Source: Pirellulales bacterium
Lineage (GTDB): Bacteria; Planctomycetota; Planctomycetia; Pirellulales; JADZDJ01
Direction: 5' to 3'
NCBI GenBank assembly: GCA_035499655.1
Contig: DATJYL010000056.1
Location: 1 to 57,739, forward strand
Length of the DNA: 57,739 bases
How positions within the stretch are numbered: the first letter of the stretch is position 1; every line of letters starts with the position of its first letter. Under the pieces are notes generated by a model that did no database searches, was not told where the DNA came from, and was given only the letters and a program-made list of their open reading frames with translations. Positions 2,881 through 29,628 of this stretch are shown piece after piece. The position numbers and the translations under genes were made by a program.

Positions 2881-2936
2881 GCGGGTTGCGTTGGAGCCAT
2901 TGTGCAAACGCCGTCAAAGCAAGTCGTTTTCAAAAC

Positions 2937-2970
2937 AAAAAGCCCAGGGGGTTATCCCCCTGGGCTTTTT
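2937..2970. terminator. Bidirectional rho-independent terminator
   Basis: A perfect 11-bp stem (2941-2951 with 2956-2966, sequence AGCCCAGGGGG and its complement) closes a TTAT loop. It is flanked by an A run on the left and a T run on the right, so it can act on both strands. It lies between two convergent genes, the MORN-repeat gene (+) and the giant surface-protein gene (-), as expected for a shared terminator. Confidence 0.92.
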
Positions 2971-3027
2971 CACTTGCAAAGTTAACTGTTGGAAAAGAAC
3001 TCTTTCATCACGAACACCATAAGTTCG

Positions 3028-6000
3028 TTATGCAGGTTTTCTGCGGCGACGTGAGGCTACCCATACCGCCGGCAGTGCCAAGCCAAACAGAACCAACGAA
3101 CTCGGTTCTGGAACACCCGCAGTGTTGCCGTGGCCACCGTTGAGATAGCCTATGAATGATTGCAGGTCGGCGTAGTTGACTAATCCGTCACCGTTGATAT
3201 CCATGATGTCTTGCACATCTGCAAAATCGTAACCGTTCGTCGATTCATAGCCTGCTAGGTTCGCCAAAGCCTGTTCGAACGGCAGAATCTGGTTGGCATC
3301 GACATGCGGATAACTAGGGTTGACTTCGCCCAAGATGAGGTGGGTCGAGGAGTTAAGCGGTACAATTTCGCCGCTGCTCCCCACGAATTTCGCTCCGGTT
3401 AAGTAGCCGTTAAAGTGGACGTCAGCCAGTTGACCGGCACTCAAGCCGCTGCTGCTTCCAAACAACACTTGGTCCTGGCCACCGCCACCGGCGAGTCCAA
3501 CCCAATCTTTAATCCGTAGAATACTGCTCCAAGCAACTAGATGGCTGTCCGCAAATTGGAGATGATCCGACGCATCTTGGGTAGTACCAAAGTCCAACGC
3601 CGAGTTCGTCCCCTGAACTTGCAGGGTGCTCAGCGATTGGTTGTGTCCACCCGAGGACAGCGTACCACCGTTAAGTACGATTGCCGATTGGTTGGAAATG
3701 GCATTCACAATTCCCATGGCCAGGGTACCCTGGTTGACGGTAGTTGGGCCGTTGTATGTGGAGGAGAGGTCCGGGCCAGGATCGCCCAGCGTAAGAGTTC
3801 CCAGGCCGCTCTTGGTTAAGCCATCGTCCAAGCCGGCACCCAAAGTTGGATCGTGAATCAGCGGTGCGACAATTGTGATCGCAAAACCATTGGTATTAAT
3901 CTTGGCGCCGAGAGCCTGAACGACGGGCCCCTGCTGATTGAAGGAAGCATTCGTACTACCTGTATTGAGGACCGGAATAAAATTGGTTGTAGACTCACCT
4001 GCAACAATAGTTCCACCATTCAAATTGAACGCAGTCCCGCCGGTTGACAAGCTAGTCCCAGGAGTTTGCGTAAAGTCGCCAACATTCAACGTACCGCCGT
4101 TTAATTGAAGCGTGGTTACCGAGGTGCCCCCTTCCCCATTGAGCTCAAAACCACCAGGCGCCCCACTCAACGCAAGAGTTACAGCAGCATTGTCCTGTAC
4201 CGTAAAAATAGATGACGTCGTCGTGGCGCCACCTGCCGCAAGAATAATCGCTGGAACAGTCATCGTCGAATTATTTTTAACCGTGAACGTTGTCGAGTTT
4301 CCAGCGCTTCGACCAACCCACAGCGTCTCGCTTGTGGTAACGTTAAACTGACCAGTACCAGCAACAACAAAATCACCACGTTCCAAATCGAAGAAGCTGA
4401 GCGGCGCGAAATTTGCAATGCCGGTAAAAGTAACCGAAGTAGTTGTATCGCCTGCAACACCGCCGGCAACTAATCTTAATTGCGCACTGGACGTGATGCC
4501 GGTCGTTGTAATATTACCGCTGATTGTTGGATTCGATCCTGCGACAACATCCAACGAGTCATTGATGTTCGAGCCATTTGGGGCAAAATTGACATTCGCA
4601 GCCACATTGATGTTGCCGGACAATTGCAACACACCATTCGTGGTTGGATTCGTGTGGACTTGGATTGTTGTTCCGGCCGCGACGGCGGTGCTGCTGGTCA
4701 GCGTTAAAATGCCGCCATTGATGGTAGTGTTACCGCTATAGGTATTGATTCCTGAGAGCGTAAGATTTCCAGTACCAGCCAAGGTCAGCGCAACGGTCCC
4801 ACCGGAGGGTCCGGCGGTGTTTTGGATATTACCAGAGAATGCGGTAGTTGTAGTCTGGTTGTCCGTTAATACTGAAGCAGTAGTCGAGCTAACATTATCG
4901 ATGGTGCCACTGCCGCTAAGCGAATTGACGGAAGGACTAGCCCCATTCAAATCCAAAATGCCGCTGGTCATAGTCAGATTACCCGTACCAATATTACTGC
5001 CGCTGCCAATCTGAAGGGTTCCTGAATTAATTGTGGTGGACCAAGCGCCGCTGTTTGCGCCGCTTAGCGTGGTCATGCCACCGCCGGATTGAATGAACGT
5101 TCCGCCTCCGGTAATCGAATTCGTAACGTTATAGGCGTTGGGCCGATTTACTGTCAGCGTGCCGTTCAATGCGACGCTTCCAGTTCCCAGCGAGGCAGTT
5201 GTCGATGTGCCGTTGCCAATTTGCAAGGCATTGTTCAAGTCAATGGAAGTATTCGCATAGGAGTTTGCGCTGGTGAAAATAACATTGCCAGCTCCATTAC
5301 TAACGGACACGTTGTAACTGCCGCCGCTGATGCTGCCCGTGCTGCCGCTACTGTTTCCAATGGTGAGCGTATCCGTCGGATTGGTAGCCGTCAGGGTAAC
5401 GTTATCGGCCAAGGTGACGTTCGCAGTGATGGCATGATTGCCATTGGTGACAACAACGGAAGCTCCATGGGTGTTGTTATTGAGCGTTAGCGTACCGGCC
5501 GGACTGCCCGGATCGATCGAAAACTGCGCGGCTGTGTCATTGAAAGTAACCGAACCTGCCGTCCTAGCGCCATTCAGGGCGATGCTGGTGGCTCCCGAGG
5601 CTGCGGAGTTGGTCGAGTTAAATGAAACCGAATCGCCTGGATTACCGGGCGCAGTCCCTTGATCCCAGTTCGTGCCAGTTTGCCAGTTCTCACCGGAACT
5701 GTGAATCCAGTTGTAGATTGGCGTCAATCCACTGATTTGCAAAGTAATGTTAGTGCCACCGCCGCCGTCAGAGGACTCACCCCAGGTGTACATGGCTCCG
5801 CCTGCTGGATTATTGATGACGACATCGGAATTCAATGTTCCAAGCGAGGGCACTGTGCCGCTCTTAATGTCAAACAATGTAAATGTTCCATTAAGCGTAT
5901 ACTGACTCAACGAACCGCCCGCGTACAAATTCAGTTTCGTCCCACTGTTTAGATTCAGCCCATTGGTGGAAATGGTCTTATCGTTGGCGCCGCCCGAAAG

Positions 6001-9000
6001 ATCTTCATTCAGAATAGAACCCGTGGCAAAAGTCAGGCCTCCTACGGTCAAAGTCCCGAAGCCACTAAAGCCATTGGCAGCCGGGATACCTGGAGAAAGT
6101 TGGCCGCCACTTTGAAGAGAAACGGCGCCGGTGATAAATCCTGCCGTGCCTCCGGCATTACCGCCGCCTAATATACCATTGCCCCCGACGGTGACTGCAC
6201 CGGTGCCGGTAGCCGACGAGCCTGAAGCATTGCCGGCATACAAAGCACCATACACAACATTCGTGCCGCCGGTATAGGTATTGGCTCCGCTAAGCTGCAC
6301 ACCACCGCCAGTTAGGACCTGTGCATTGGCAGTGCCTGTTCCAGTTCCAGGAAGTTGGCCGATGACGCTTCCGTTTGCGCTGGAAGACGGCACACCGATG
6401 GTGAGCGGGCCAGACCCACTAACCACACCACTCACGGTCATGTAGTTGTTGGTTGCGGTCGTGGTGGCCGCAATTCCGCCTCCTGAGAGGCCAAGCACAA
6501 CCGGCCGTTTATTGGCGCCTGCGTTATCCAATGTGTATGATCCGCTGGCAACATTTCCCACTAAAGTGCCGCCGTTCAAGTTCAATTGGGCACCGGTGGT
6601 AACAGTTCCCAAGCTTCCGTTAGAAAAGATTTCTGTGTATCCGCCGTTAAGATACGTTTGCCCCGTATAGGAGTTGGCAACAGAAGTCGGCATGACGACC
6701 GTACCCAAACCGGCGACAACATAAGCGCTGCCTGCAGTCTTACCATCGCCCAAGGCCGTATTGAATACCAAATTACCCAGAGTATTATTTTGCCAGAGCA
6801 CCATCGAACCGGCGCTGGAGCTGCGCAAGCCCGGCTGAAGGTCGCCATTGGGTCCCGAGACGGTTACGTTAAATGCTCCGATATTCGGCGTAACTAAAAC
6901 TCCTCCCGTGCTGACAACCCCCGTAAGTGTCCATGTAACGGCAGAAGTATTACCGGGGAGGTTGAAACGCACTGTGTTGGGATTGTCGGTATTGTGACTT
7001 CCCAAAGCTGCCGTGGACGCATCAACATTGCCCGCCAAAGTGGCGTTGCCGGTTTGTGGGTTATAGAAATTAGGAACCTGGCTGCCGCCGATAATGGTAT
7101 ACGGACTGGTTCCCAACGTTCCGTCAGTCAAGCTGGTGCTGGCCCAGTCATACAAACCGACCGTGGCGTAGGCTGCCGCATAGGAAGTGCCCGTGTTGTT
7201 AAAGGAAGTGAGGACGCCATTGCCATTGCCGGCGCCTGTCGCCGCAACTCCTGCAGTCGTCGTCTTAATAATTCCTGTAGCAGCAACGTTGCCGCCACCG
7301 TTAACGGTTGCTGGCCCATTAAACACCACGGTGGAGCCAGTGTTATAAGTTAGCGCGCCCAACGCCAAGATGGGCAAATTTCCCATTGAACCTGTCGTGG
7401 GGGCCACGGAGACAACCGAAGCGCCTGCATTGAGGGTTGTGCTGGCAAACGTTTGCGAGTTTCCTCCGCTAAAATCTTGATTACCATTGACGATCAGCGA
7501 ACCGCCGCCCAAGGCGAGCTTCCCGCTGCTATTAACAATGTTGGAAGTTAGAGAACTGCTCGGGAAATCAAGGATCAACGAACCCCCGTTGGCTGCTACG
7601 GTTCCGCTGAACCCGCTAGCGTTTCTCAATAACAATGAGCCGGTTCCGCCGGTGCTCGCAACAGTGATTGTGCCGGTTCCGCTGAAAGTATTTGGATAAG
7701 TCTGGCTGTCACTGCGGTTGTAAATCAAGTTGGCACTGGGACCGATTGCCACATTGCCGCTCCCTAAAGATCCGCTTGTCCCTCCGTTGCCGATTTGCAA
7801 GCTGCCTCCCGAGACATCGGTAACCCCGGCATACGTATTAGAGCCAATTAGGGTCGCAAGTCCGCCGCCAAGTTTGGTCAGACTGCTGGTTCCGTTGTCA
7901 ACAATCGCCGAACCAATCGTCAAGTTGCCGGCAGTGTTTTGTTGATTCAAAATCAATTCTCCGCCGGACGAGGCCTGCAGGTTGCCTCCGGTAATGACCG
8001 AGGAATTACTGCCTACCGCGCTGCTAACTAAAATGCCGCCGGAGGTGATGGTGTTTGTTCCGCTTAAGGTAACCGTATTGGCCGCAGCGGACCCAAAGCG
8101 CAGGCTGTTGGTGGTCGAGCTGGAAGTCGGACTGGAACTTGTTGTGACCGTCGTGTTATTCCCCGCGGACCACGTATCGTTGGTGTAGCTGCCAAGGACA
8201 GTGATTGCTCCCGCAATCGAGCCGTTACCGGCGCTGACAGCCCAATCGGTTCCGCCGACGGTGGCCCAGCCGCCCAGAATCGAACTGCCGGTATTGGCAT
8301 TAATGGCGGTAATGCTGCCGGATGTCGGCAGGGTGAAATTGACGCCTGCTCCCGTATTCCGAGTAATGGTGTTCAAGGCCAAAACGCCGCTGCCGGCGAC
8401 AGTGGCCGCTGTGCCAATATTGCCGCCGGTCAACGCCGTGAGAATTGTCCCGCCGGTAAAGCTATCGCCCGTTCCGGCAACGAACGTGCCGTTGCCGAGG
8501 TTCAATTGCGTAGCGCTAGTGGCCCCGGTAAGCGTCATGGTGCCGCCGGCAACGTTAAGCGTAGTGGCCGAGGAACTGGTTCCGGTCACAGTGAGCGTGC
8601 CGGCATTGATGGTCATTGTTGTGGCGCTGGAGTTTCCACCAATCGACAGCGAACCACCGTTCACGAGTACCGTAGATGCCGCCGCATTGCCGCTAACCGT
8701 CATCGTGCCGGCGTTAACGGTAATCGAACTTGAGGCCAAATTTCCCGTTACCGACAAAGAACCGGCGTTCACCGTCGTGGAGCCGGTGTAATCCTGATTT
8801 GCGTTCAGGGCTAGCGCGCCGCTGGTATTCTTGATTAAAGAGCCAATGCCACTGATGTCCCCGGTGTAGGTGCCGGTGTTGGTGGTCATGGTAATTGCAA
8901 TGGTGTTGTTGTTGACATCCGCTAAGGAGATATTCCCGGCCCCACCTATTCCGCCGACCGTAAACGACGTGCTCGCCGCCGCGGTAGAATCGAATACCAG

Positions 9001-9636
9001 CCCCCCGTTAGTTGGATTAATAGTAACCGTTGTGGCTGCAACAGCGTTGGTGTTGGCGAGTTTCAGTATATTGGTGGCGCCAATCGTGGTAGCGCCCGTG
9101 TAAGTGTCCGCGGCGTCCAAGGTGAGCGTGCCGGTGCCGGTCAACGTGAGACCGCCGGCGCCGCTGACAACGGCGCCGGTGCCAAAGGTGATGTTGCCGC
9201 CCCCGGCGGTCATGTTGATCGTCTGCGCCGTCGTCGTCGACATGTTGAAGTTAATGGTCTGCAGGTTGGTGCTCAGGTTCGAAATGCCTGTGCCGGTGGG
9301 CGTTGCTTCCAAAACGTAAACATTTGTTGCCGTACCGGCATTGATGGTGTAAGCAACTGCGCCAGCATTGAACGTAATGCCCCCGAAGTTAACGGTGGTG
9401 GCCAAATCATTGGTGAGTAACGCGCCGGTATCGTTCTGGCTGCCGAAGAAAAAGAAATCGTTATTCGCCGGGTTTGTAGCAGGATTCCAACTGCCCGCCG
9501 TGCTCATAGTGGTTCCACCAGTGCCAGTCCAAGTGCGATTGGCTGCCTGCGCTGTGGAAACCAAAAACAATCCTGAAGCAGCAAGTCCAATGACGACCAT
9601 CAGGACAATAGACTTTTTCGCAACCTGCGTATTCAT
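3028..9636 (-). CDS. Giant autotransporter-type beta-strand-repeat protein with dockerin-like loop and PEP-CTERM tail
   Basis: A 2202-residue secreted surface protein. Residues 1-32 are a signal peptide (hydrophobic core VLMVVIGLAASGLFLV, cleavage near AQAAN). The rest is a Gly/Thr/Asn/Ser-rich beta-solenoid-like chain. It contains at least seven autotransporter-associated beta-strand repeats (PATR type, e.g. LTLSGINTYSGNTTINGG, LTKLGGGLATLIGSNTYAG, LTKSGLGTLTLGD). Near residue 2150 is one Ca-binding dockerin/EF-type loop (DINGDGLVNYADL). The C-terminus is a PEP-CTERM sorting signal: VPEPSSLVLFG, a hydrophobic stretch, then RRRRK. PEP-CTERM proteins are processed by an exosortase, none of which is in this window. 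There is no beta-barrel translocator, so it is not a classical autotransporter. The ribosome-binding site is GGAG, 7 nt before the ATG. Confidence 0.9.
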   Translation of the reverse strand: MNTQVAKKSIVLMVVIGLAASGLFLVSTAQAANRTWTGTGGTTMSTAGSWNPATNPANNDFFFFGSQNDTGALLTNDLATTVNFGGITFNAGAVAYTINAGTATNVYVLEATPTGTGISNLSTNLQTINFNMSTTTAQTINMTAGGGNITFGTGAVVSGAGGLTLTGTGTLTLDAADTYTGATTIGATNILKLANTNAVAATTVTINPTNGGLVFDSTAAASTSFTVGGIGGAGNISLADVNNNTIAITMTTNTGTYTGDISGIGSLIKNTSGALALNANQDYTGSTTVNAGSLSVTGNLASSSITVNAGTMTVSGNAAASTVLVNGGSLSIGGNSSATTMTINAGTLTVTGTSSSATTLNVAGGTMTLTGATSATQLNLGNGTFVAGTGDSFTGGTILTALTGGNIGTAATVAGSGVLALNTITRNTGAGVNFTLPTSGSITAINANTGSSILGGWATVGGTDWAVSAGNGSIAGAITVLGSYTNDTWSAGNNTTVTTSSSPTSSSTTNSLRFGSAAANTVTLSGTNTITSGGILVSSAVGSNSSVITGGNLQASSGGELILNQQNTAGNLTIGSAIVDNGTSSLTKLGGGLATLIGSNTYAGVTDVSGGSLQIGNGGTSGSLGSGNVAIGPSANLIYNRSDSQTYPNTFSGTGTITVASTGGTGSLLLRNASGFSGTVAANGGSLILDFPSSSLTSNIVNSSGKLALGGGSLIVNGNQDFSGGNSQTFASTTLNAGASVVSVAPTTGSMGNLPILALGALTYNTGSTVVFNGPATVNGGGNVAATGIIKTTTAGVAATGAGNGNGVLTSFNNTGTSYAAAYATVGLYDWASTSLTDGTLGTSPYTIIGGSQVPNFYNPQTGNATLAGNVDASTAALGSHNTDNPNTVRFNLPGNTSAVTWTLTGVVSTGGVLVTPNIGAFNVTVSGPNGDLQPGLRSSSAGSMVLWQNNTLGNLVFNTALGDGKTAGSAYVVAGLGTVVMPTSVANSYTGQTYLNGGYTEIFSNGSLGTVTTGAQLNLNGGTLVGNVASGSYTLDNAGANKRPVVLGLSGGGIAATTTATNNYMTVSGVVSGSGPLTIGVPSSSANGSVIGQLPGTGTGTANAQVLTGGGVQLSGANTYTGGTNVVYGALYAGNASGSSATGTGAVTVGGNGILGGGNAGGTAGFITGAVSLQSGGQLSPGIPAANGFSGFGTLTVGGLTFATGSILNEDLSGGANDKTISTNGLNLNSGTKLNLYAGGSLSQYTLNGTFTLFDIKSGTVPSLGTLNSDVVINNPAGGAMYTWGESSDGGGGTNITLQISGLTPIYNWIHSSGENWQTGTNWDQGTAPGNPGDSVSFNSTNSAASGATSIALNGARTAGSVTFNDTAAQFSIDPGSPAGTLTLNNNTHGASVVVTNGNHAITANVTLADNVTLTATNPTDTLTIGNSSGSTGSISGGSYNVSVSNGAGNVIFTSANSYANTSIDLNNALQIGNGTSTTASLGTGSVALNGTLTVNRPNAYNVTNSITGGGTFIQSGGGMTTLSGANSGAWSTTINSGTLQIGSGSNIGTGNLTMTSGILDLNGASPSVNSLSGSGTIDNVSSTTASVLTDNQTTTTAFSGNIQNTAGPSGGTVALTLAGTGNLTLSGINTYSGNTTINGGILTLTSSTAVAAGTTIQVHTNPTTNGVLQLSGNINVAANVNFAPNGSNINDSLDVVAGSNPTISGNITTTGITSSAQLRLVAGGVAGDTTTSVTFTGIANFAPLSFFDLERGDFVVAGTGQFNVTTSETLWVGRSAGNSTTFTVKNNSTMTVPAIILAAGGATTTSSIFTVQDNAAVTLALSGAPGGFELNGEGGTSVTTLQLNGGTLNVGDFTQTPGTSLSTGGTAFNLNGGTIVAGESTTNFIPVLNTGSTNASFNQQGPVVQALGAKINTNGFAITIVAPLIHDPTLGAGLDDGLTKSGLGTLTLGDPGPDLSSTYNGPTTVNQGTLAMGIVNAISNQSAIVLNGGTLSSGGHNQSLSTLQVQGTNSALDFGTTQDASDHLQFADSHLVAWSSILRIKDWVGLAGGGGQDQVLFGSSSGLSAGQLADVHFNGYLTGAKFVGSSGEIVPLNSSTHLILGEVNPSYPHVDANQILPFEQALANLAGYESTNGYDFADVQDIMDINGDGLVNYADLQSFIGYLNGGHGNTAGVPEPSSLVLFGLALPAVWVASRRRRKPA

Positions 9637-12445: not shown

Positions 12446-15400
12446 ATGCAACGGCATATTGTGTTTTGCACGATGGTGGGGTTGTGCGCTATGCTTTTAG
12501 CGCCCGTACTGCAGGCGGCCGACTCCACATTTGTGGGTGTCTTGTCCTTGGCCACTGAAGACTCGGTCGCCAAGCAATTGGGGCTTTCGGACGACGCCCG
12601 GGCTGCATTGGATCGGCTGATCAAGCAGCGCGAGGACGATGCGCTGGAATTGTCGCAACAGATTAAGGACCTGTCGCCTGATGAACGGGAAACGAAACTC
12701 GCCGCGTTCCGCAGCGAATCGGAGCAGATGGGGCTGAAATTATTGAGCGACGAACAGTGGAATCGCTTACAGCAGGTTCGCTTGGGGCGCGACGGATTGG
12801 CTTCGCTGGCCGACCCAAGCATTGCCAAACAACTCCAGCTTACGGCGGACCAGCAGACAAAAATCGCCGAGATCATGAAGGAGCGCGAAAAACAGTTGGC
12901 CAGGGCCACGCCACAACAACAGAAAAATTTATTGGCGTATTACGAACGGGCACTGGGCGATGTGATCACCCCGGAGCAACACACGAAGTGGGAATTATTG
13001 GCCGGCGGACCAAGCACCGATGCTGATGCCAAGCCGGCCGACAGCGTGGCGCAATCCACCGATGGCGCGGCGAAAACAAGTGACGGCTCGGCAAAGCCGA
13101 CCGATAACGCTTCCAAAACCGCCGCCGATGCTGCGGCCGCACCGTCGAATTCCAGCGCGGCCAATTCGGCTGCGTCGAATGCCCCTGCACCCAATACTGC
13201 GGCGTCAAATCCCGCCAGTGCCGCACCAAATTCCGGCAATTCTGCGTCCAGTAGCGCTGGCAAAAGCTCCGGGAAAACCGCGGCTGCTCCAGCCGGTCTG
13301 AAACGGACCGACAACGGCAAAATCCTGTTCAACTTCCGCTATGCGCCCTGGAAAGACGTCCTGGAATTGTTCGCCGAAAAAGCCGATCTGTCGCTAGTGA
13401 TGGATCAGCCGCCGCCGGGCACATTCAATTATCAGGACGATCGGGCGTACAGCATTGGCGATGCTATCGACGTGCTCAACAGCGTGTTGCTCACACGAGA
13501 TTATACGCTGATTCGCCGCGACCGGATGCTGATGGTGGTGAGCCTGAAAGACGGCATTCCGCCGAATTTGATTCCCATGATTTCGCTCGACGAACTTGCG
13601 GACCGCGGCAAGTATGAGTTGGTTTGCGCGGCATTTCCCATCAACAATATGAGCATCGACGAGGCTACGCAAATCATTAAACCGCTGTTGAGCATGCAAG
13701 GCGCTTTGCAAGGCACCGTGGTGCCGCTGCCGCAGGCGCGCGAACTTTTAGTCACCGACACGGGCGGCAAGCTCCGCACCATCAAACAAATTTTGGATCG
13801 CAGCGAAAACCCGGACTTTGCCAATCGCGACGATTTGCGGCATTTCGAAATGCACTACGCGGCGCCCAATGATGTGCTGACCATCGCCAAACAACTGCTG
13901 AACGTTCCCAGCGACCAAAGCAGCAATTCCGCCGGCACCTTGCGGTTGATGCTGGAACCCGGCGGCAAGCGCATTCTCGCCAGCGGCCGACCGGAAATGA
14001 TCGACCGCTTTGCGGAGATCGTCAAAATGTTGGATGTCGCCGGCAAAGGGGGCGAAGCCTACGCCGACGAGCAGTTGGAATTCGAAGTGTATCCGATCAC
14101 TTCCGTCGATCCCAAGCTGGCCATGGCGGTCATGCAAACGCTGTTGGCCGGTCATCCCGACGTGCGGCTCAGCCAGGTCCCCGAAACCGGCACGCTGTTG
14201 GTGTTAGCGCGGCCCAGCGAGCATGCCACCATTCGGGCCACGCTGAATCAAATGCAAAACGAGGGAGAGAAAATCGATGTCATTCAATTGCGCGAGCTTG
14301 ATCCGGAAAAAGCTGTGGTCGCCATCAACAAGTTGTTTTCCGGCGGCGATGAGAAAGCCGCCAGCAATGCGCCAAAAGTGGAAGCCGAAACCACGTTGCG
14401 ACGCTTGCTGGTGCGCGGCTCCGATGCGCAAGTCGCCCAAATCAAAGCCATGGTCGCCAAGATGGAAGGCCCCGAAACTGATATTACCGGCGCCACGGAT
14501 CGCGGCAATATCCGCATGATACAACTGACGGGTCGACAGGGCAGGGCGGCGCTGGAACAACTCCAGCAATTGTGGCCCGCTACCCATCAAAACTCCATTC
14601 ACGTCATCACGCCCAGCGGCGGCTATCCGGAAATCCGACCCGGCAGCAGTAGCGGATCGGGCCTTTCACCTGGCGGCATCATCGACGAGCGCCGCCCGTC
14701 GCAAGCGCCTGCCGCTCCGGAGGAAACCCCCTCATCTTCGCAGTATGTTCCGAATGCTCCGCGCGGCGTCGCGGCTACTCCCAGTGCCAAATCTGCGCCG
14801 CTGTATCCCAGCTTCATCGCTCCGTCGGACGTCGCCAATAAAAACGCGGAACAGAATGCGGACCAGAACAAAGCCGGCCAGAATCAGCCGAAGCCAAGTA
14901 AAGCGGACGATAAATCGGACGGGCAAAAATTGAATGTCGTGCCACTGGACCGCACCACACATGCCAAAATCGTTCGTTTCCAATTCGTCGATTATCCTGC
15001 GACGGCAACGTCACAGGACGATGCGCAAGCAGGCCCGGCAATTACCGCTTCGAAGAAAACAAATTCAAGCGCGGCCACCCCGTCGATTGCAACTCAGCCG
15101 ACCGCGAATGAATCGCCTGCAACGGCGCCAACAACAAATGCCTCGACGACCAATGTGGCGGCTACCGACTCGACTCCCGCCGGCTCAACGCCTGCCGCAA
15201 CATCAAAAGCGTTGACCAAAGAGGCAACCCCAAAGACGACAACAGAAAAGGATCAAGCCGGCGGCGAGCAAGGCTCCACTTTGAAACTAAAAGACAGCGA
15301 CAAAGCCAGCGTTCCCGGAGCGCCCATCGTGGTGGTCGTCGGCGCCAGCGGCGTGATGATTGCCTCGGAAGATAAAGACGCCCTGAACGATTTTGAAAAA

Positions 15401-16567
15401 CTTCTTTCCGCGCTCGTCAGCAAGCAATTTCAAGGCCAACGCGAATACACCGTTTTCTATTTGAAGCACACGCATGCTTCCGTGGCTGCGGAACTATTGG
15501 GACAAATTTTCGGCGGCGGCACGATTTCCGGCGGAAGCGGCGGAGGAAATTTGGTCGGCGATTTTGCCCAACGAGCCATCGGCGGTTTTGGCGGCGGCTT
15601 GGTCGGAAGCTTGTTGGGCGGCGATGGCGACAATAACAACACGGCGCCTGCGGGCATGGTTTCGGGCGCGCGCGGCACTGGCGGACCGGTGGACATTGTG
15701 CCCGATACTCGATTGAACGCGCTGATCGTCCAAGCCAGCCCGGCCGATATCGACACGATTGATCAACTTCTGCGAGTTCTGGATCAGAACGACAGCCCCG
15801 AAGATGTTTCGCTTGTCACCCGGCCGCGAATGATTCCCGTATATAACACCACGGCAGATTCCGTAGCCGACGTCATCAAACAATTGTACGCCGACCGATT
15901 GAATGGGGCGGCAGGGCAACAGCGACAAATGAATCCGCAAGATTTCATCATGGCCATGCGCGGTGGCCGTGGTGGCCGCGGCAATCAAGGGGACCAACAA
16001 GAAGAATTACCCAAGATGAGCATCGGCGTCGACGAGCGAAACAATGCCCTGGTGGTGGACGCGGCCGATCCCCTCTTTAACGAAGTGAAGGAATTAGTCA
16101 CCCAACTCGATCAACCTTCCACCGAAGAACGCGAAACCACGCGCTTGGTGACGCTGAAAGCCACGAGTCCGGAATCAATGAAAACCATGCTGCTTTCCGT
16201 TCTCGGCGATCAGGCCCACAGCAGCACCACCACCACGACTCCCAACGGCGGCTCTTCAACATCTCGAACCGCGAGCACAGGCAATCAACCTGGCGGATTC
16301 GGGCAAGGTCAGAATGGTTTTGGAGCGCTTCGCCAGCTGGGCGGATTCGGAGGCTTTGGAGGCTTCGGTGGTCCCGGCGGCGCTGGTGGCTTTGGTGGAT
16401 TTGGCGGACCAGGCGGCTTTGGTGCCGGTGGCTTCGGCGGAGGAGGATTTGGCCGTGGAGGCGGCGGTGGGGGTTTTGGCCGCGGCGGTGGTGGAGGGGG
16501 TCCCGGAGGCGGTGGATTCGGCCGAGGGGGTGGCGGAGGCGGCGGTCCGCGGGGCGGCGGAAATTAG
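12446..16567 (+). CDS. Barrel-less protein of repeated secretin N-type modules with LTxxQ-like head and Gly-rich tail
   Basis: A 1373-residue periplasmic or envelope protein. Residues 1-24 are a signal peptide. Residues 30-190 are helical with three LSDDARAAL / LLSDEQWNRL / LQLTADQQTKI units resembling Spy/CpxP (LTxxQ) modules. A long Ala/Ser/Pro linker follows. From about residue 290 there are seven or eight secretin_N/NolW-like modules, recognisable by their ends, e.g. PDTRLNALIVQASPADIDTI and VDERNNALVVDAADPLFNEV, each closing with a ..LDQ helix. A second disordered linker interrupts the series at about residues 740-950. The last ~85 residues are Gly/Phe-rich (GGFGGFGGPGG type). No secretin barrel is present, so it cannot itself form the pore. 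In-frame GTG at 12443 is an alternative start. A role as an accessory ring of the nearby T2SS is inference. Confidence 0.75.
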   Translation: MQRHIVFCTMVGLCAMLLAPVLQAADSTFVGVLSLATEDSVAKQLGLSDDARAALDRLIKQREDDALELSQQIKDLSPDERETKLAAFRSESEQMGLKLLSDEQWNRLQQVRLGRDGLASLADPSIAKQLQLTADQQTKIAEIMKEREKQLARATPQQQKNLLAYYERALGDVITPEQHTKWELLAGGPSTDADAKPADSVAQSTDGAAKTSDGSAKPTDNASKTAADAAAAPSNSSAANSAASNAPAPNTAASNPASAAPNSGNSASSSAGKSSGKTAAAPAGLKRTDNGKILFNFRYAPWKDVLELFAEKADLSLVMDQPPPGTFNYQDDRAYSIGDAIDVLNSVLLTRDYTLIRRDRMLMVVSLKDGIPPNLIPMISLDELADRGKYELVCAAFPINNMSIDEATQIIKPLLSMQGALQGTVVPLPQARELLVTDTGGKLRTIKQILDRSENPDFANRDDLRHFEMHYAAPNDVLTIAKQLLNVPSDQSSNSAGTLRLMLEPGGKRILASGRPEMIDRFAEIVKMLDVAGKGGEAYADEQLEFEVYPITSVDPKLAMAVMQTLLAGHPDVRLSQVPETGTLLVLARPSEHATIRATLNQMQNEGEKIDVIQLRELDPEKAVVAINKLFSGGDEKAASNAPKVEAETTLRRLLVRGSDAQVAQIKAMVAKMEGPETDITGATDRGNIRMIQLTGRQGRAALEQLQQLWPATHQNSIHVITPSGGYPEIRPGSSSGSGLSPGGIIDERRPSQAPAAPEETPSSSQYVPNAPRGVAATPSAKSAPLYPSFIAPSDVANKNAEQNADQNKAGQNQPKPSKADDKSDGQKLNVVPLDRTTHAKIVRFQFVDYPATATSQDDAQAGPAITASKKTNSSAATPSIATQPTANESPATAPTTNASTTNVAATDSTPAGSTPAATSKALTKEATPKTTTEKDQAGGEQGSTLKLKDSDKASVPGAPIVVVVGASGVMIASEDKDALNDFEKLLSALVSKQFQGQREYTVFYLKHTHASVAAELLGQIFGGGTISGGSGGGNLVGDFAQRAIGGFGGGLVGSLLGGDGDNNNTAPAGMVSGARGTGGPVDIVPDTRLNALIVQASPADIDTIDQLLRVLDQNDSPEDVSLVTRPRMIPVYNTTADSVADVIKQLYADRLNGAAGQQRQMNPQDFIMAMRGGRGGRGNQGDQQEELPKMSIGVDERNNALVVDAADPLFNEVKELVTQLDQPSTEERETTRLVTLKATSPESMKTMLLSVLGDQAHSSTTTTTPNGGSSTSRTASTGNQPGGFGQGQNGFGALRQLGGFGGFGGFGGPGGAGGFGGFGGPGGFGAGGFGGGGFGRGGGGGGFGRGGGGGGPGGGGFGRGGGGGGGPRGGGN

Positions 16568-18203: not shown

Positions 18204-19772
18204 TTACTTCTTGGGCGGTGAAACTTTGAGGACTTCGTCCGGCGTGATAAAACCGTCGCCGTTGAGGTCATATTTGGCAAACTCGGCGAGCTTGCTTTCG
18301 GTCCAGGTCGAAGCAAATTCGTGCATGCTCACTTGCCCGTCGCCATCGGCATCGTCCTGGGCAAACCAATCGGGCAAGCCCTCCGGCAGCCGTTCCTTGG
18401 GCGTAAGATAGTGTTTTCCCGTGGCTGTGGAACCGCTGGAAGGCCCGGGGCCGTTATCTCGCCGGCCACCCAATCCGCGACTGCCGCCCGGATTGCCCCC
18501 TGCCGCATCGGCGGTCGCCGTAGAGCCGGAAGATGAAGTCCGACTGGCGCCTGCCCCGGACGAACCGGAACTATCGGATCGTGAAGCCATAGAAGCGCTA
18601 TCATCATGGTTCCAATTCTTCAAGGTTTCAACAATTTCGTCCAGAGTGACTTTGCCGTCGTGATTGCGGTCATACCGCTCGCCATTGCTCATTTGCGACC
18701 ATTCTTCTTTTTCCAACACGCCATCGCCATTTTTGTCGTATTGCTTCATCATGCTGGCGGCGTAGCCGCGAATTTTTGCGTCGTCCGTTGCTCCGCTGGA
18801 ACTAGAAGCGCTCGACGAACTGCCGCCAGCAGGGGCACTTGTGGAACTGCTGGATGCGCCGCCTGAGGAAGCAGTGGCGACTTGACTGTCGCCGGTGAAA
18901 GATGCGGTCGCCAAGACCAAATCTTCACCGAAGCCGGGCACGGAAGGAGCATCCACCGATTCGCCAAAGGGGGGAACCAGCGGCGGCGTATTATCTTCCT
19001 CTTTGTTCTCGCGCGAGGCATCGCCCGAATTTGCGACATTTCCCGGACTTCCTTCGCCGCCCCGGTTGAAGCGTCCACCGCCTCCACCTTGGTTGCGCAT
19101 TTGATCAAAGGCGGCCGTGGCCTTCTCGATGGAAATGGGTCCATCCGTGTTCAGACCGGCGCGTTGCAGCATGAATCGGGCGCGATCGTTGAGTTCGCTC
19201 GGTTCGAGCATGCCGTTTCCGTTGGTGTCCAAGCGCCGCAGCATGTCGCCGACATTTGCGCCACCGCCGCCGAATCCACCTCCTCCAAAGCCGCCACCAC
19301 CGAACCCGCCGCCAGGACCGCCGAATCCACCGCCGCCAAAGCCGCCACCCCCAAATCCGCCTCCACCAAAGCCACCCCCAGGACCACCAAATCCGCCACC
19401 GCCAAAGCCACCCCCAGGGCCACCGAAACCGCCACCGCCAAAGCCACCACCGCCTCTGCGGCCAAAACCACCGCCGCCCATACCGCCCATACCATCGCCG
19501 AATCCACCCCCGCCAAAGCCTCCGCCACCAAATCCTCCACCCCCTGGACCGCCGAAGCCGCCCCCACCGAACCCGCCTCCGCCACGACCCCCTCGACGTC
19601 CAAAGCCACCTTGCCCTTGTCCATCGCCGCCTCCGTCGTCCCGTTGTGCGAAACGACCACCCCGAGCCGCTCCACCGGAAGAGTCGCCGGAATCCTGGGC
19701 TAGGACGTATTTTGCCGTCCCGGCCGAGGCGGTAACTACCAGCACGATGAAAATGCGGTTAAAGCTGAGCAT
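18204..19772 (-). CDS. Secreted EF-hand protein with long glycine-rich tract
   Basis: A 522-residue exported protein. ATG 19772 is chosen because it directly opens a good signal peptide (LSFNRIFIVLVVTASAG, cleavage near VLAQD); the open frame extends 15 codons further to 19817. Residues ~35-180 are Gly/Phe repeats of the FGGGGFGGPGGG type. Five EF-hand loops are readable: DTNGNGMLEPSE (~180), DKNGDGVLEKEE (~343), DRNHDGKVTLDE (~366), DADGDGQVSMHE (~475) and DLNGDGFITPDE (~500). They are joined by Ser/Gly/Ala-rich linkers. Ca binding is expected from the loops. The role is unknown; planctomycetes have many such EF-hand envelope proteins. The gene is antisense to its neighbours and stands alone between the GT4 gene and the LTxxQ-type gene. 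Confidence 0.82.
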   Translation of the reverse strand: MLSFNRIFIVLVVTASAGTAKYVLAQDSGDSSGGAARGGRFAQRDDGGGDGQGQGGFGRRGGRGGGGFGGGGFGGPGGGGFGGGGFGGGGFGDGMGGMGGGGFGRRGGGGFGGGGFGGPGGGFGGGGFGGPGGGFGGGGFGGGGFGGGGFGGPGGGFGGGGFGGGGFGGGGANVGDMLRRLDTNGNGMLEPSELNDRARFMLQRAGLNTDGPISIEKATAAFDQMRNQGGGGGRFNRGGEGSPGNVANSGDASRENKEEDNTPPLVPPFGESVDAPSVPGFGEDLVLATASFTGDSQVATASSGGASSSSTSAPAGGSSSSASSSSGATDDAKIRGYAASMMKQYDKNGDGVLEKEEWSQMSNGERYDRNHDGKVTLDEIVETLKNWNHDDSASMASRSDSSGSSGAGASRTSSSGSTATADAAGGNPGGSRGLGGRRDNGPGPSSGSTATGKHYLTPKERLPEGLPDWFAQDDADGDGQVSMHEFASTWTESKLAEFAKYDLNGDGFITPDEVLKVSPPKK

Positions 19773-20054
19773 CGTAGTTCGATTGTAACCCCAAAGTATA
19801 AAACCACCTAACGGCATTTTTTGTTCCGCGAGATTGCACCAAATCGGGTGAAATTCGTATGCTGAAAGCCAGAACCTAGCCGGGCTCGACGGGGTTTAAG
19901 TGATTGCTCGCTAGTGTGGGTGGGCGGCTGGAGTTACGTGCGGCGAAGGAGCTTGATTTTTCGCGCTGTGCAACAAGGACCTAAAGTCTGCAATCCAGCC
20001 AATTTGAAAGGTCGTGGGAGGTTTCTCAAAAATACCCAGTGGAGGAGTTTCGTC

Positions 20055-20801
20055 ATGAGAATTTGTTTAAGTTGTCTGAAGGTTTGTGTGGCAGTGGCGG
20101 CGTTAGCGATTGCTGCGGACGCGCTAGCACAAGCAGGCGGAGGAGGTGGTGGTCGTAGAGGCGGATTCGGTGGACGTGGCGGTGGTTTTAGCCCCCTGAT
20201 GCTGTTGCAGGCCGAACCGGTTCAGAAAGAATTGGAATTATCGGACGATCAGAAAACGCAAGTGACTAAGTTGGCCGATGATGCACGGCAAGCATTCGCG
20301 GGCGGCGGCGGGCCCCCGACAGCGGAAGAAATGCAACAGCGCCGAGACGATCAGCAAAAGAAAATCGACGCCATTTTGCTGCCGAATCAGCAGGAACGGC
20401 TGCAGGAAATTCTGCTTCAATTGCAAGGCGCCCAAGCCCTTTCGGATCCCAAAGTGGCCGAGAAGCTGCAGTTGACCGATGATCAGAAAACCCAGCTCCA
20501 ACAGTTGGCCGACGATTACCGCCAAAAAAATCGGGATTTGCGCCAAGGTGGTGGGCGGCCAGACCCAGATGCCGTAGCCAAGTTGCGAACTGAACAAACC
20601 GACAAAGCCATGGCGATTTTAACCGCCGATCAAAAAGATCAGTTCACCAAGATGGAAGGAGCAAAAATTGACATTGATCCCGCTACCATCATGCGCGGCG
20701 CCTTCGGTGGCCGTGGCGGCCGTAACCGCGGCAACGGCGGAAATGGCAATGGTGGGGGTAATGGCAATGGCGGAAAAGGCACCGGCCAGCCGGATGCTTA
20801 A
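20055..20801 (+). CDS. Small periplasmic LTxxQ-like protein with glycine-rich ends
   Basis: A 248-residue exported protein. ATG 20055 follows GGAGGAG by 8 nt and begins a signal peptide (cleavage near LAQAGG), which settles the start against a longer open frame from 19914. After a short Gly/Arg/Phe stretch come two related helical units, LELSDDQKTQVTKLADDARQ and LQLTDDQKTQLQQLADDYRQ, plus a weaker ILTADQKDQFTKM. These resemble the Spy/CpxP LTxxQ motif. The C-terminus is Gly/Asn-rich. The middle unit, with the preceding SDPKVAEKLQLT, closely parallels ADPSIAKQLQLT in the secretin-module protein at 12446. The function is unknown; an envelope stress or chaperone role would be by analogy only. 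Confidence 0.78.
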   Translation: MRICLSCLKVCVAVAALAIAADALAQAGGGGGGRRGGFGGRGGGFSPLMLLQAEPVQKELELSDDQKTQVTKLADDARQAFAGGGGPPTAEEMQQRRDDQQKKIDAILLPNQQERLQEILLQLQGAQALSDPKVAEKLQLTDDQKTQLQQLADDYRQKNRDLRQGGGRPDPDAVAKLRTEQTDKAMAILTADQKDQFTKMEGAKIDIDPATIMRGAFGGRGGRNRGNGGNGNGGGNGNGGKGTGQPDA

Positions 20802-21037: not shown

Positions 21038-21117
21038 GTAGGTTTGTGGCCTTCAGCCTTGGCTGCGTGACGGTTCCCTCCGCATTCCGCCCTCCTTTTC
21101 CTTTCGCGTGTAAATTC

Positions 21118-22830
21118 ATGGATGCTGCAGATATTCTTGTTCGGCGCGGATTGTTGACGGAACGTCAATTGGCGGAAGTGCGCGCCGCCCAGAACAACGG
21201 CACTCAACTGGAACAACTTGCCGTGCAAATGGGTTATTGCACGGAAGAGGCGGTCCTTAAAGCGCTGGGTGCGGAAGTCGGGCTCGATTACATCGATTTG
21301 GCGGAAACCCCCGTCGACTTGTCGCTCTTGAAAGATTTTCCTCCCAAGTTGCTCCATCGCCAGGCGCTGTTTCCGGTGCGCCGCGAAAACGGCAGCCTGG
21401 TGGTTGCCACAGCCGATCCGTTCGATTTGTACCCGCTGGACGAACTCAGCGCTTCGACCGGTTTAACCGTCGTGCCCGTCCTGGCCAGCCGCGCGGAAAT
21501 TTCCAAGCTCATCAAAACCCATTTGGGCGTGGGCAGTGAAACCGTCAGCAGCTTGGTGTCGCAAAGCGACGACAACGTAGAACTGCTGGGCGAAATTGAA
21601 ACCGACGGCTCCGAGCTGTCCGAAATGGCGCAGGAGGCCAGCGTCATTCGGCTGGTCAACGAAATTTTGCTGGAAGCCATCGAAACCAGGGCCAGCGACG
21701 TGCACATCGAGCCGCAAGCCCATGGGCTGTGGATTCGTTACCGCATCGACGGCCTGTTGCATCCGCAGCCGGTGCCGCCGGAAATCACGCGCTTTCAAGC
21801 GGCCATTCTTAGCCGGTTGAAGATTATGGCGCGGTTAAACATCGCTGAAAAACGGCTACCGCAAGATGGCCGCATCAAGCTGCGCGTCCGAGGACGGGAA
21901 ATTGACGTGCGCGTGTCCGTGATCCCCATGATTCACGGCGAAGGCATCGTCATGCGCATCCTCGACAAAGGCGCTATGGAGTTCAAACTCCAAAAGCTGG
22001 GCATGGAGGACGATTTATACAAAACCTTCCACGAACTCATCACGTTGCCGCACGGCATTGTTTTGGTGACTGGCCCAACCGGCTCGGGAAAAACCACCAC
22101 GCTGTATAGCGCGCTGCTGGAAATCCGCAGCGATGACACCAAAATCATCACCACCGAAGACCCGGTCGAATATCAGCTCGACGGCATCAACCAGATTCAA
22201 GTGCATACCAAAATCGGTTTGACCTTCGGGGCCTCGCTGCGGAGCATTTTGCGTCACGATCCGGATATTGTTCTGGTCGGCGAAATTCGAGACCAGGAAA
22301 CGGCGGAGAATGCCATTCAAGCGTCTCTGACAGGTCACTTGGTCTTTAGCACGCTGCACACCAATGACGCGGCCGGCGCTTACACCCGCATGATCGACAT
22401 GGGCGTGGAGCCATTTCTCGTGGCCAGCACAGTGGAAGGCGTCATGGCCCAACGGCTGGTCCGCCGTTTGTGCCCGCAGTGCAAGGAAGCCTTCGTCCCC
22501 ATCGAAACCGATTTGCCTTCCGATTTCCCCCGAGACAAACTAAAGGAGATCGGCGGAAAGTTGTATCGCGCGCGCGGATGTCGTGCCTGCCGCAACTTCG
22601 GCTATTCCGGCCGAATGGGTATTTACGAGCTGTTAATCACCACCAATAAAATCCGCCAATTAGCTCACGACCGAGCCAGCACCTGGGCCATTACCGAGGC
22701 CGCCGTGGCCGACGGAATGACAACGTTGCGGCAAGACGGTTGGCGAAAAGTCCTTTCCGGCCGCACCACGATTGACGAAGTGGCCCAGGCCACTAAGGGC
22801 GATATTTCCACGTTCAAACTCAAACATTGA
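21118..22830 (+). CDS. gspE: Type II secretion ATPase GspE
   Basis: A 570-residue cytoplasmic hexameric ATPase that powers pseudopilus assembly. The N-terminal T2SSE_N/MshEN domain is at about residues 1-150. The core has Walker [11 protein letters not shown] (residues 319-328) and Walker [13 protein letters not shown] starting at D381. The His box is [14 protein letters not shown] tetracysteine zinc module, CPQC (452-455) and CRAC (488-491), is typical of GspE rather than PilT. ATG 21118 is chosen over an upstream in-frame start at 21046 because family proteins begin near [14 protein letters not shown]. It is first in a plus-strand run gspE-F-G-H-I-J-K-L-M. Confidence 0.95.
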
Positions 22831-22840
22831 AAATGCCCTT

Positions 22841-22890
22841 CGTCCGTTGTCAGTTGCCCGTTGCAAATCGTTGATCTGACCACTGATAAA
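22841..22890 (-). repeat. Word-like intergenic repeat, copy 1 (gspE/gspF junction)
   Basis: This stretch fills the gspE-gspF gap. Read on the minus strand it contains ATCAGTGGTCAG (22876-22887), which is identical to a stretch at 25504-25515, and CAACGGAC-like words shared with 24804-24813 and 25530-25553. It ends one base before the gspF start codon and replaces any recognisable ribosome-binding site there. Confidence 0.6.
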
Positions 22891-22891
22891 T

Positions 22892-24103
22892 ATGCCCGAT
22901 TTTGCCTACATCGCCCGTGACCATACTGGCCGCAAGGTTAGCGGCACACTTTCGGCGTCCAGCCGCCGCGACGTCGTGGCATCTTTGGGCAAGCAATCGC
23001 TATTTCCTTTGGAAGTCAAAGATGCGGTCGCCGACAACGTGGTGCATGTCAAGCGCGGACGCAAAGTGAAGCCGCAGGTGATGGCCACGGTGTATGCGCA
23101 GTTGGCCGATTTGCTCCGCAGCGGCGTGCCGTTGTTGCGCGCGCTGGAAGTGCTAAAAAATCAAAGCTCGCAGCCGGCGTTGAAGGAAGTAATGGGCGAA
23201 GTTTACACCGCGGTGGAAGACGGCACCAGCATCGCCGACGCCATGCAAACCAATCCGCGCGCCTTCAGCGAAATGGCCATCAGCATGGTGCGCGCCGGCG
23301 CCGAAGGCGGCTTTCTGGAAGATGCCCTGGCCCGGGTGGCCCAATTCACGGAGCAGCAGCAAGACCTTAAAAATCGAACGACAGGCGCACTCGCCTATCC
23401 CGCTTTTTTGGCCGTTGTAGGTGTGACGGTTGTCACGGTTCTGATTGTTTTCTTTGTTCCAAAATTTGAAGATTTGTTTGCCCGGCTGCGCGACCGCGGC
23501 GAATTGCCCGCCCTGACCGATGCGCTGCTGGCCGTCAGCCACACGCTGGGCTCCTGGGTCGGTTTGGTTATTCTTGGCGCGATGGTGATGGGTTTTCTTT
23601 TCGCGCGAAAAAAATTGTCGACCGAGGCGGGACGGGTTTGGAGCGATCGCATGAAACTAAAATTGCCCGCGATTGGCGGCATCTTTCAAAGTTTAGCCGT
23701 TGCCCGGTTTTGCCGCGTGCTGGGCACGTTGTTGCACAACGGCGTGCCGATTTTGCGTTCGTTGGAAATCTCCAGTGCCGCCGCCGGAAACAGGATTTTG
23801 GGCGCCGCGATTTCCGAAGCGGCCGAAAACATTTCAGCCGGGCAATCGCTCGCCAAACCGTTAGGCGCCAGCGGTTATTTCCCGCCGGAAGTGGTCGAAA
23901 TGATCGCCGTGGCGGAAGAATCCAACACCCTGGAAAGCGTTCTGACGACCATTTCCGACGCACTGGAGCGAAGAACATTTCGCCGCTTAGATTTAATGGT
24001 GCGCTTGCTGGAACCCATGATGCTGTTGCTGCTGGCCGGGATGGTATTAATTGTCGTTATTGCCCTGTTAATGCCCGTGATGCAAATGAGCCAAGCTGTG
24101 TAA
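22892..24103 (+). CDS. gspF: Type II secretion inner-membrane platform protein GspF
   Basis: A 403-residue polytopic protein with two T2SSF domains. The first follows FAYIARDHTGRKVSGTL and contains LADLLRSGVPLLRALEVL; the second contains FCRVLGTLLHNGVPILRSLEI. Three membrane segments are visible, at about residues 170-192, 217-240 and 370-395. The length matches GspF/PilC. It couples the GspE ATPase to pseudopilin assembly. The start ATG has no Shine-Dalgarno sequence because a repeat occupies the 50 bases upstream, so translation may depend on coupling or unusual initiation. It is the second gene of the gsp operon. Confidence 0.95.
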   Translation: MPDFAYIARDHTGRKVSGTLSASSRRDVVASLGKQSLFPLEVKDAVADNVVHVKRGRKVKPQVMATVYAQLADLLRSGVPLLRALEVLKNQSSQPALKEVMGEVYTAVEDGTSIADAMQTNPRAFSEMAISMVRAGAEGGFLEDALARVAQFTEQQQDLKNRTTGALAYPAFLAVVGVTVVTVLIVFFVPKFEDLFARLRDRGELPALTDALLAVSHTLGSWVGLVILGAMVMGFLFARKKLSTEAGRVWSDRMKLKLPAIGGIFQSLAVARFCRVLGTLLHNGVPILRSLEISSAAAGNRILGAAISEAAENISAGQSLAKPLGASGYFPPEVVEMIAVAEESNTLESVLTTISDALERRTFRRLDLMVRLLEPMMLLLLAGMVLIVVIALLMPVMQMSQAV

Positions 24104-24287
24104 AATAGAATGCGGCGGAAAAACTTGTTTCTGAACGATCATCGGTTCGTTTTGAGGGCCAAAAATGGCAGAAAAGCGTGGCAAATTCGCCACCTGGGCT
24201 GTTTTAGCGGGGTTTAATAAGTAGCCTGCGGAAACCTTCATCGAAAAACTTCTCAATACATATATCTTTCTTGTGGAGGTCTGAATT
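24104..24287 (+). promoter_or_regulatory. gspF-gspG spacer with hairpins
   Basis: This is the largest gap within the gsp operon (184 bases). It holds a bulged hairpin around 24133-24150 (GAACGAT with ATCGGTTC) followed by GTTTT. A second stem is GTGGC (24178-24182) with GCCAC (24189-24193). It could be a partial terminator or RNA-processing site that lets the major pseudopilin be expressed at a different level; a separate promoter is possible but not clear. Confidence 0.35.
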
Positions 24288-24710
24288 ATGTCCGGCATTC
24301 ACGCACGTCGCCCATCGCGCGCGGCCTTTACGTTGATGGAAGTGTTGCTGGTGTTGGTCATCCTGGTGGTACTGGGGTCTTTGGCGGTCGGTATGTTCAC
24401 TGGTGCTCAGAAACGGGCAAATCTGAATGCAGCACAGGTGCAAGTCGAAGCCATTTCCGACCAATGTGAGCGTTATAACCTCGACATGAACGCCTATCCA
24501 ACAACTTTAGATCAGTTGTTTACAAACCCCGGTGGCCCCAAAGCGGATGCTTGGACCGGGCCGTATCTAACCAAAGAAGTGCCGTTGGATCCTTGGGGAA
24601 ATCCATACCAGATTCAATCGCCCGGTGCGCGGCATCCCGATAAAGTCGATGTCTGGTCGTATGGGCCCGACGGCCAAAACGGCACGCAAGACGACATTTA
24701 CAACCATTGA
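24288..24710 (+). CDS. gspG: Major pseudopilin GspG
   Basis: A 140-residue pseudopilin, the main subunit of the T2SS pseudopilus. A strong GGAGG precedes the ATG. The 13-residue leader ends RAA, and the mature protein starts FTLMEVLLVL with the conserved Glu5 (E18 of the precursor). The usual Gly at -1 is Ala here. The long hydrophobic helix is followed by the GspG fold: AYPTTLDQL, VPLDPWGNPYQI, and the Ca-binding C-terminal loop YGPDGQNGTQDD. It needs a prepilin peptidase, which is not encoded in the window. Confidence 0.95.
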   Translation: MSGIHARRPSRAAFTLMEVLLVLVILVVLGSLAVGMFTGAQKRANLNAAQVQVEAISDQCERYNLDMNAYPTTLDQLFTNPGGPKADAWTGPYLTKEVPLDPWGNPYQIQSPGARHPDKVDVWSYGPDGQNGTQDDIYNH

Positions 24711-24753
24711 TTCCCTGGAATCGGCGAGCGGCATTTTCTGCCGTGCCGTGAAA

Positions 24754-24830
24754 GGTCAGTGGATCAGCAGTCAAAAAGCCAGCAGTTAGTTGCCACCCAC
24801 CGGCAACGGACAAAAGAGAATGGACAATGC
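24754..24830 (+). repeat. Word-like intergenic repeat, copy 2 (gspG/gspH junction)
   Basis: This stretch contains GGTCAGTGG and CAACGGACAA (24804-24813), words shared with the copies at 22841 and 25504. It covers the gap before gspH and runs into its first codons. Confidence 0.5.
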
Positions 24831-27178: not shown

Positions 27179-27191
27179 CGGAGACCTACTG

Positions 27192-29549: not shown

Positions 29550-29628
29550 TTCTCACTCAACCGCAGCATTATTTCGGCGCGCCCCAAACATCTCATTCTG
29601 AAACCAAGAAACTACACATCTCCACGCC

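Follow-up and report, generated by a model that had tools for sequence, protein, structure and literature searches.

Introduction

The secretin of the bacterial type II secretion system (T2SS), known as GspD, PulD or XcpQ, is built from the modules N0-N3 and a barrel, and its N0 domain binds the HR domain of GspC (PMC3169554). Several described systems divide or lengthen a secretin. In the type III secretion systems (T3SS) of rhizobia (RhcC1/RhcC2) and of Pseudomonas syringae (HrcIIC1/HrcIIC2), the passages cited here place the N- and C-terminal parts of the secretin in separate genes (PMC3574062, PMC3973906). The mitochondrial T2SS of some protists is described as having GspD together with GspDN1-3, half N domains included, and a yeast two-hybrid contact between GspD and GspDN1 is reported (PMC8134430), while six periplasmic rings are described for PilQ of Thermus thermophilus (PMC5745081). 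Here we analyze a gene at 12446-16567 (+ strand) of a 57,739-nucleotide contig from a Pirellulales bacterium (Planctomycetota; DATJYL010000056.1 of assembly GCA_035499655.1), the whole of which we call the window. The gene codes for a large protein, hereafter the focal protein, that has secretin N modules and N-type folds, has no barrel and is tied to T2SS genes. We propose, with a probability of roughly two in three, that it is one half of a two-piece T2SS secretin, namely the half that carries N0 and lies nearest the inner membrane, and that it would pair physically with a separately encoded GspD.

The focal protein shares an N0 domain and N-type modules with GspD/PulD/XcpQ, which are its best matches in the PDB by profile and by fold, but it differs from them in lacking a barrel, in having many more N modules and in scoring below the cut-off of the GspD model. 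As with RhcC1/RhcC2 and HrcIIC1/HrcIIC2, the secretin would be split over two bacterial genes; those pairs, however, belong to type III rather than type II systems, and module expansion is not mentioned for them in the cited passages. The mitochondrial proteins likewise represent a T2SS secretin split into several proteins, some of them half N domains, but they are eukaryotic, consist of single or half N domains and have no N0 found in the account cited, whereas the focal protein is one large N0-bearing bacterial protein. Thermus PilQ, as described in the cited text, also uses extra N rings to extend a secretin through a wide periplasm, but it is a single chain with its own barrel, serves pili and DNA uptake, and has six rings versus 8 to ~35 modules. 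Because split secretins are known from rhizobial T3SS and mitochondrial T2SS, the focal protein and GspD would constitute a new variant and not a new kind; splitting itself is already known, and it is the stacks of up to ~35 modules that make this variant unusual. Among the open-licence PMC papers searched we found none that describes a split or barrel-less secretin for the planctomycete T2SS, a split T2SS secretin in bacteria, an expansion to dozens of modules, or the coexistence of single-chain, two-chain and broken-module forms in one class.

Results

The focal protein is a stack of N modules without a barrel

The open reading frame (ORF) starts at GTG 12443 or ATG 12446, with 1,373 residues counted from the ATG. 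A signal-peptide-like start, a helical head and a linker are followed by N0, N1-N4, an N5 that contains a disordered insert, N6, N7, a half-module and a tail rich in glycine and arginine:

12446-16567, + strand: focal gene, N0-N7 protein of 1,373 residues without a barrel (ORF, Pfam, fragment scores, AlphaFold)
12446-12520, + strand: signal-peptide-like start, judged by eye
12521-13015, + strand: helical head, LTxxQ-like but below significance (9.7 bits; orthologue alignment)
13322-13552, + strand: N0 domain (PF21305 in orthologue segments; overlay on 4jtm)
13613-13813, + strand: N1 module (Pfam fragment score, module model, AlphaFold)
13835-14041, + strand: N2 module (same evidence as N1)
14075-14263, + strand: N3 module (same evidence as N1)
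14270-14470, + strand: N4 module (same evidence as N1)
14507-15433, + strand: N5 module split by a long disordered insert, halves at about 14507-14620 and 15326-15433 (model elements, low-confidence insert)
15440-15793, + strand: N6 module with a conserved glycine-rich hydrophobic loop (Pfam fragment score, orthologue alignment, AlphaFold)
15821-16117, + strand: N7 module (same evidence as N1)
16136-16210, + strand: terminal half-module, beta1-alpha1 (found in orthologues; low model confidence)
16211-16564, + strand: glycine/arginine-rich tail (sequence, orthologue alignment)

Secretin_N (PF03958) is the sole Pfam family found in the whole protein (E=1.1e-52, 176.6 bits against a cut-off of 28.2), with six stretches passing individually, and a Pfam search for the secretin barrel PF00263 gave no match at E values up to 1. 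When the protein was cut into fragments the PF03958 scores were 24.3 bits for N1, 33.5 for N2, 24.4 for N3, 31.0 for N4, 49.0 for N6 and 44.7 for N7, which leaves N1 and N3 individually under the cut-off; the terminal half-module gave 12.4 bits, and N5 with its insert omitted had no Pfam match. The first module is an N0 and not a Secretin_N module. Specifically, PF21305, the family of the GspD N0, gives 13.6-13.8 bits in the window protein (cut-off 27) and is found at E<=1 in 25 of the 33 orthologous segments, with a best value of 2.6e-6. The GspD model TIGR02517 scores 120.8 bits, below its cut-off of 351.35. A preliminary description of this DNA had counted seven or eight Secretin_N-like modules with a glycine-rich tail and no barrel motifs; the tail and the lack of a barrel are borne out, and the module count resolves into one N0, seven N modules and a half-module. 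Its LTxxQ-like head does not hold up, as PF07813 reaches 9.7 bits against a curated cut-off of 24.3. Of 17 orthologue rows, 15 align over the first part of this head, which L067 and L070 lack.

An AlphaFold run that covered N0 through the half-module and used 58 sequences gave a mean predicted local distance difference test score (pLDDT) of 71.7. The model predicts a beta-alpha-beta-beta-alpha-beta-beta order for N0 and beta-alpha-beta-beta-alpha for N1-N7, has low confidence in the inserts, and contains no barrel, so that the N-type folds anticipated by the preliminary description are predicted and a hidden barrel is not seen. Foldseek returned T2SS secretins as the best PDB matches (6hcg, XcpQ N0-N2 and GspD of enterotoxigenic Escherichia coli, ETEC). 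The predicted N0 overlays the crystal structure of the ETEC GspD N0 (4jtm) with Z 11.9 and a root-mean-square deviation (rmsd) of 1.6 over 75 residues, and the GspD chain of a GspC-GspD complex (3oss) with Z 10.7 and an rmsd of 1.7 over 75. A focal-family profile run against PDB sequences also found GspD N1-N2 (best E=1.5e-12). The half-module is poorly predicted on its own (pLDDT ~42-66), as would be expected if a partner completes it, although low confidence alone proves nothing.

A search with the window protein alone found no relatives. An alignment-based search gave 132; the 80 best of these were retained and are called the named loci. Their titles are all planctomycete except for L125 (Candidatus Nealsonbacteria), which we take to be a mislabelled bin. 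Locus L109, with an orthologue of the focal gene, belongs to Blastopirellula marina DSM 3645. In 72 ORFs from these loci that have N0 and N7 the architecture is conserved and the frame is open, with a median length of 1,235 residues (range 954-1,692). None of the 72 matches the barrel model, and 61 have a positive-scoring half-module directly after N7. Identity to the window protein is 29-74% over 17 aligned rows. This conservation makes it highly improbable that the focal protein is a decaying secretin that lost its barrel and has no function of its own, even though its half-module and glycine-rich tail resemble the stump of a longer chain.

Single-chain relatives join the focal protein to GspD

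A focal query and a gspD query match one and the same frame in 19 genomes (16 of family f106, two of f109 and one of f107). These frames have 1,893-3,269 residues; in 18 genomes both queries gave the same frame length (1,937-3,269), and the frame of G331 (1,893) was established by fetching. Focal-type modules make up the N-terminal half and the C-terminal half matches the window GspD. Module profiles were built from 16 focal and 6 GspD sequences, covering focal N0-N7 plus the half-module and GspD D1-D8 plus the barrel. With these, the 12 distinct chains that were fetched read N0, N1, more focal-type modules, N7, half-module, linker, D3-D8 and barrel, some middle modules of several chains being below threshold or best matched by another N model. 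The linker is glycine-rich in 11 of the 12, with little glycine in the f107 chain. Before the most glycine-rich segment of each chain the best-matching modules are 65 focal-type to 13 GspD-type, and after it 6 to 67; these counts include L209, where the automatically chosen segment lies late in the chain, and L215, where it is weak (11 of 80 glycine).

By its sequence pattern the linker falls inside one N module, with beta1-alpha1 before it and beta2-beta3-alpha2 after it. Since the half-module profile has 25 columns, too short for significance alone in most single-chain proteins, its correspondence there rests on its position right after N7 and on the pattern. Given the module order of the single chains, the glycine-rich tail of the focal protein occupies the position of their linker. 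Judged from sequence, the focal protein and GspD are thus counterparts of the N- and C-terminal halves of a chain that is undivided in related families. A gspE tree with 10 single-chain and 27 two-chain rows (single-chain L221 and L209, for which no gspE was obtained, were left out) parts the two groups with one change.

Two systems break a module between their chains. The GspDs of G285 (L212, a 929-residue frame) and of the second G288 system (L216, 1,085 residues) start with only beta2-beta3-alpha2 of D3, preceded by a signal-peptide-like stretch and a linker, and their partners (L213, 997 residues; L216, 962 residues) end with beta1-alpha1. In L216 the two frames follow each other on the same strand with 171 bp between them; the G285 pair lies apart on its contig.

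The focal gene follows the T2SS

The separate GspD and the remaining T2SS genes of the window are as follows:

21046-32213, + strand: T2SS genes gspE-F-G-H-I-J-K-L-M, of which gspI, gspJ, gspL and gspM are assigned by matches below cut-off or by position
34551-38381, - strand: GspD with modules D1-D8 and a barrel, without an N0 match by sequence (PF00263 E=1.8e-42; TIGR02517; module models)

The window gspD is on the strand opposite to the gspE-M cluster. Its product has Secretin_N in seven stretches in addition to the barrel, and its 379.6 bits with TIGR02517 exceed the cut-off. No N0 match was obtained by sequence in 25 of 30 separate GspDs (all 19 from Pirellulales, four from f21 and one each from f107 and f108).

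We surveyed 148 genomes of the class with a completeness of at least 90%, taking a gspE match as T2SS-type when its E exponent was below -180 (the next value was -151); the counts include paralogues and single-chain forms. The focal gene was matched in 100 genomes and a T2SS-type gspE in 102. Both occurred in 100, gspE only in two, the focal gene only in none and neither in 46, a co-occurrence with a Fisher p of ~2e-36 when relatedness is ignored. The two genomes with gspE only are fragmented (640 and 1430 contigs) and have weak gspD matches (1e-11, 3e-15). In the 46 genomes where the best match to gspE is no more than pilus-like, the focal gene was not matched. The distribution therefore follows that of T2SS gspE (100/102 vs 0/46), as the preliminary description had expected. 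Within the order, the N0-N4 region was matched in 27 of 40 relatives, and GspM occurs in 28 of the 40, namely these 27 focal-positive genomes and G024.

A T2SS gspE (at least 50% identity) lies downstream on the same strand, at 385-3,580 bp, in 25 of the 80 named loci, and within 4 kb on the same strand in 22 of the 52 that have at least 4 kb of downstream sequence. At L060, L063, L100 and L130 it is gspD that lies near the focal gene instead of gspE.

The tie to T2SS genes makes it very unlikely that the focal protein serves another secretin machine, such as a type IV pilus or Tad system, and is near T2SS genes by chance. N modules are known in several secretin types and the genome has four other places that match PF00263, but there is no focal match in the 46 genomes with only a pilus-like gspE, the single-chain relatives have GspD-type modules and barrel, and the best fold matches are T2SS secretins.

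Module number varies widely

Longer focal forms gave 18-20 profile hits (L072-L075, L077, L279), 26 (L277), 27 (L220) and 35 (L280, a 3,265-residue frame), where hits are not exactly modules because one module can be matched twice. Most hits in L220, L277, L279 and L280 are N3-like modules that lie between N1 and N4. In the gspE tree the systems of L072, L074, L075, L077, L279, L280 and L281 form one group (SH-aLRT 99), and short and long versions occur together in two genomes, G010 and G322.

Across the phylum the N0-N4 region was matched in 51 of 246 genomes, 16 of them within the class. The 35 matches outside the class were left out of the count of relatives; that of G223 is strong (E=2.5e-40, a 2,117-residue frame) and the others are 9e-17 or weaker. 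At five examined loci among them (L189, L195, L196, L197, L200) the ORFs have 704-792 residues and match the barrel region of GspD as well. Elsewhere in the phylum, frames of ~4,200-5,070 residues at L190, L191, L193, L194 and L192 (G209, G041, G134, G073, G150) match the N0-N4 region weakly (E about 1e-13 to 1e-15) and could be giant N-module proteins.

Neighboring and related genes

Directly downstream of gspD is a gene that looks lipoprotein-like by eye (33095-34462, - strand). It recurs in 25 of 40 relatives, all 25 of which are focal-positive, and is a candidate pilotin or outer-membrane partner of GspD. The GspM homologue (31254-32213, + strand) has a conserved extra C-terminal domain that by eye is HR-like. 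This likeness to the HR domain of GspC is unsupported by Pfam or PDB sequence searches, which returned no HR family or structure among their matches; the low E values in the PDB search come from adding up the repeats of designed Pizza proteins. That this domain acts as a GspC-like partner of N0 is no more than a lead.

Between the focal gene and gspE are an EF-hand gene (18204-19817, - strand) and an LTXXQ gene (19914-20801, + strand); the EF-hand gene, in some relatives together with the LTXXQ gene, recurs in this position. Upstream of the focal gene, a 2202-residue protein (3028-9636, - strand) has passenger-type PATR repeats and a weak PEP-CTERM match.

Three other contigs of the same genome have related genes. 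A second barrel-less paralogue (L024 6193-9648, - strand, contig C140) has the order N0-N1-N2-N3-N4-N5a, a D7-like module and N7, and stands beside a gene that by eye is ketosynthase-like, with no T2SS gene seen nearby. On contig C116 (L025 6200-7579, + strand) a 459-residue protein with one strong Secretin_N module and, by eye, coiled-coil-like sequence is encoded directly after a kinase-like gene. On contig C194 (L093 4537-9426, + strand) a 1630-residue frame carries a secretin barrel at its C-terminus, after a long N-terminal part of low complexity.

Discussion

The preliminary description had suggested a multi-ring sleeve or adaptor that extends or gates the nearby GspD and suits the wide planctomycete periplasm. 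A T2SS-linked, poreless stack of N modules, most likely extending GspD in the periplasm, agrees with part of that suggestion, but the comparison with single-chain relatives leads us to read the focal protein as the separated N-terminal half of the secretin and not as an extra sleeve or adaptor. Under such an arrangement the focal protein would reach the periplasm by export, and its N modules would assemble there into stacked rings like those of GspD. The N0 ring would dock on the assembly platform, consisting of GspL/GspM and whatever replaces GspC, and the top of the stack would meet, coaxially, the N-terminal rings of the separate barrel-bearing GspD. The two proteins would then provide one channel from the platform to the outer membrane, with a stack height set by module number. 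A broader proposal, which we consider doubtful, is that the planctomycete T2SS secretin is a modular two-storey structure. In it, a separate, height-adjustable lower tube with N0 and 8 to ~35 N modules would be joined to an upper tube of GspD, some lineages would complete one N module from two chains (beta1-alpha1 plus beta2-beta3-alpha2), and module number would act as a ruler for membrane distance.

Several observations weigh against a two-piece secretin. Five of the 30 separate GspDs, all from family f21, retain their own N0 despite the presence of the focal protein in that class. The window GspD has a complete D3 preceded by two further modules, D1-D2, so nothing in it needs the half-module. 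In the window's order the focal protein nevertheless keeps the terminal half-module, which makes the form seen here look like overlap after duplication or later elaboration, not a clean cut. A second model, of GspD residues 31-455, was built from three sequences (mean pLDDT 62.3) and used for topology only; in this shallow model D2 superposes on the N0 region of XcpQ (5mp2, rmsd 5.4 over 174), which means that it could be a diverged N0. Eleven of 72 named-locus orthologues gave no half-module behind N7, G024 (88% complete) has gspM without a focal match, and for 30 of the 52 named loci that have at least 4 kb of downstream sequence the part fetched on that side contains no T2SS gspE. The predicted template modelling score of the focal model is only 0.35, and the mutual placement of its modules is therefore not predicted. 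Finally, the gspE tree is poorly rooted (outgroup branches 4.72 and 7.49) and so does not fix the order of evolutionary events or decide between fission and fusion.

An alternative that we regard as unlikely is that the focal protein is a T2SS-associated ring or scaffold that arose from a duplicated long secretin and has ceased to stack on GspD. It might then be, for instance, a collar bound to the platform that gates or recruits cargo, with GspD reaching the platform on its own. The N0-retaining GspDs and the window GspD with its own D1-D3 and possibly diverged N0 would suit such a collar, as would barrel-less paralogues of similar module order away from T2SS genes, such as the one on C140. 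Against it, both parts form one chain in 19 genomes, one module is shared between them in two systems, and 25 of the 30 separate GspDs have no N0 match.

If the focal protein is indeed the lower half of a two-piece T2SS secretin, it would suggest how these systems span the planctomycete periplasm. It would also be a bacterial T2SS equivalent of the split secretins known from rhizobial T3SS and from mitochondria, and would indicate that the N0 docking unit is separable from the pore. Annotation software built on the assumption that a single gene holds both N0 and barrel could misinterpret such systems. A class with single-chain, two-chain and broken-module forms and with 8 to ~35 modules would then constitute a natural experiment on secretin ring stacking.

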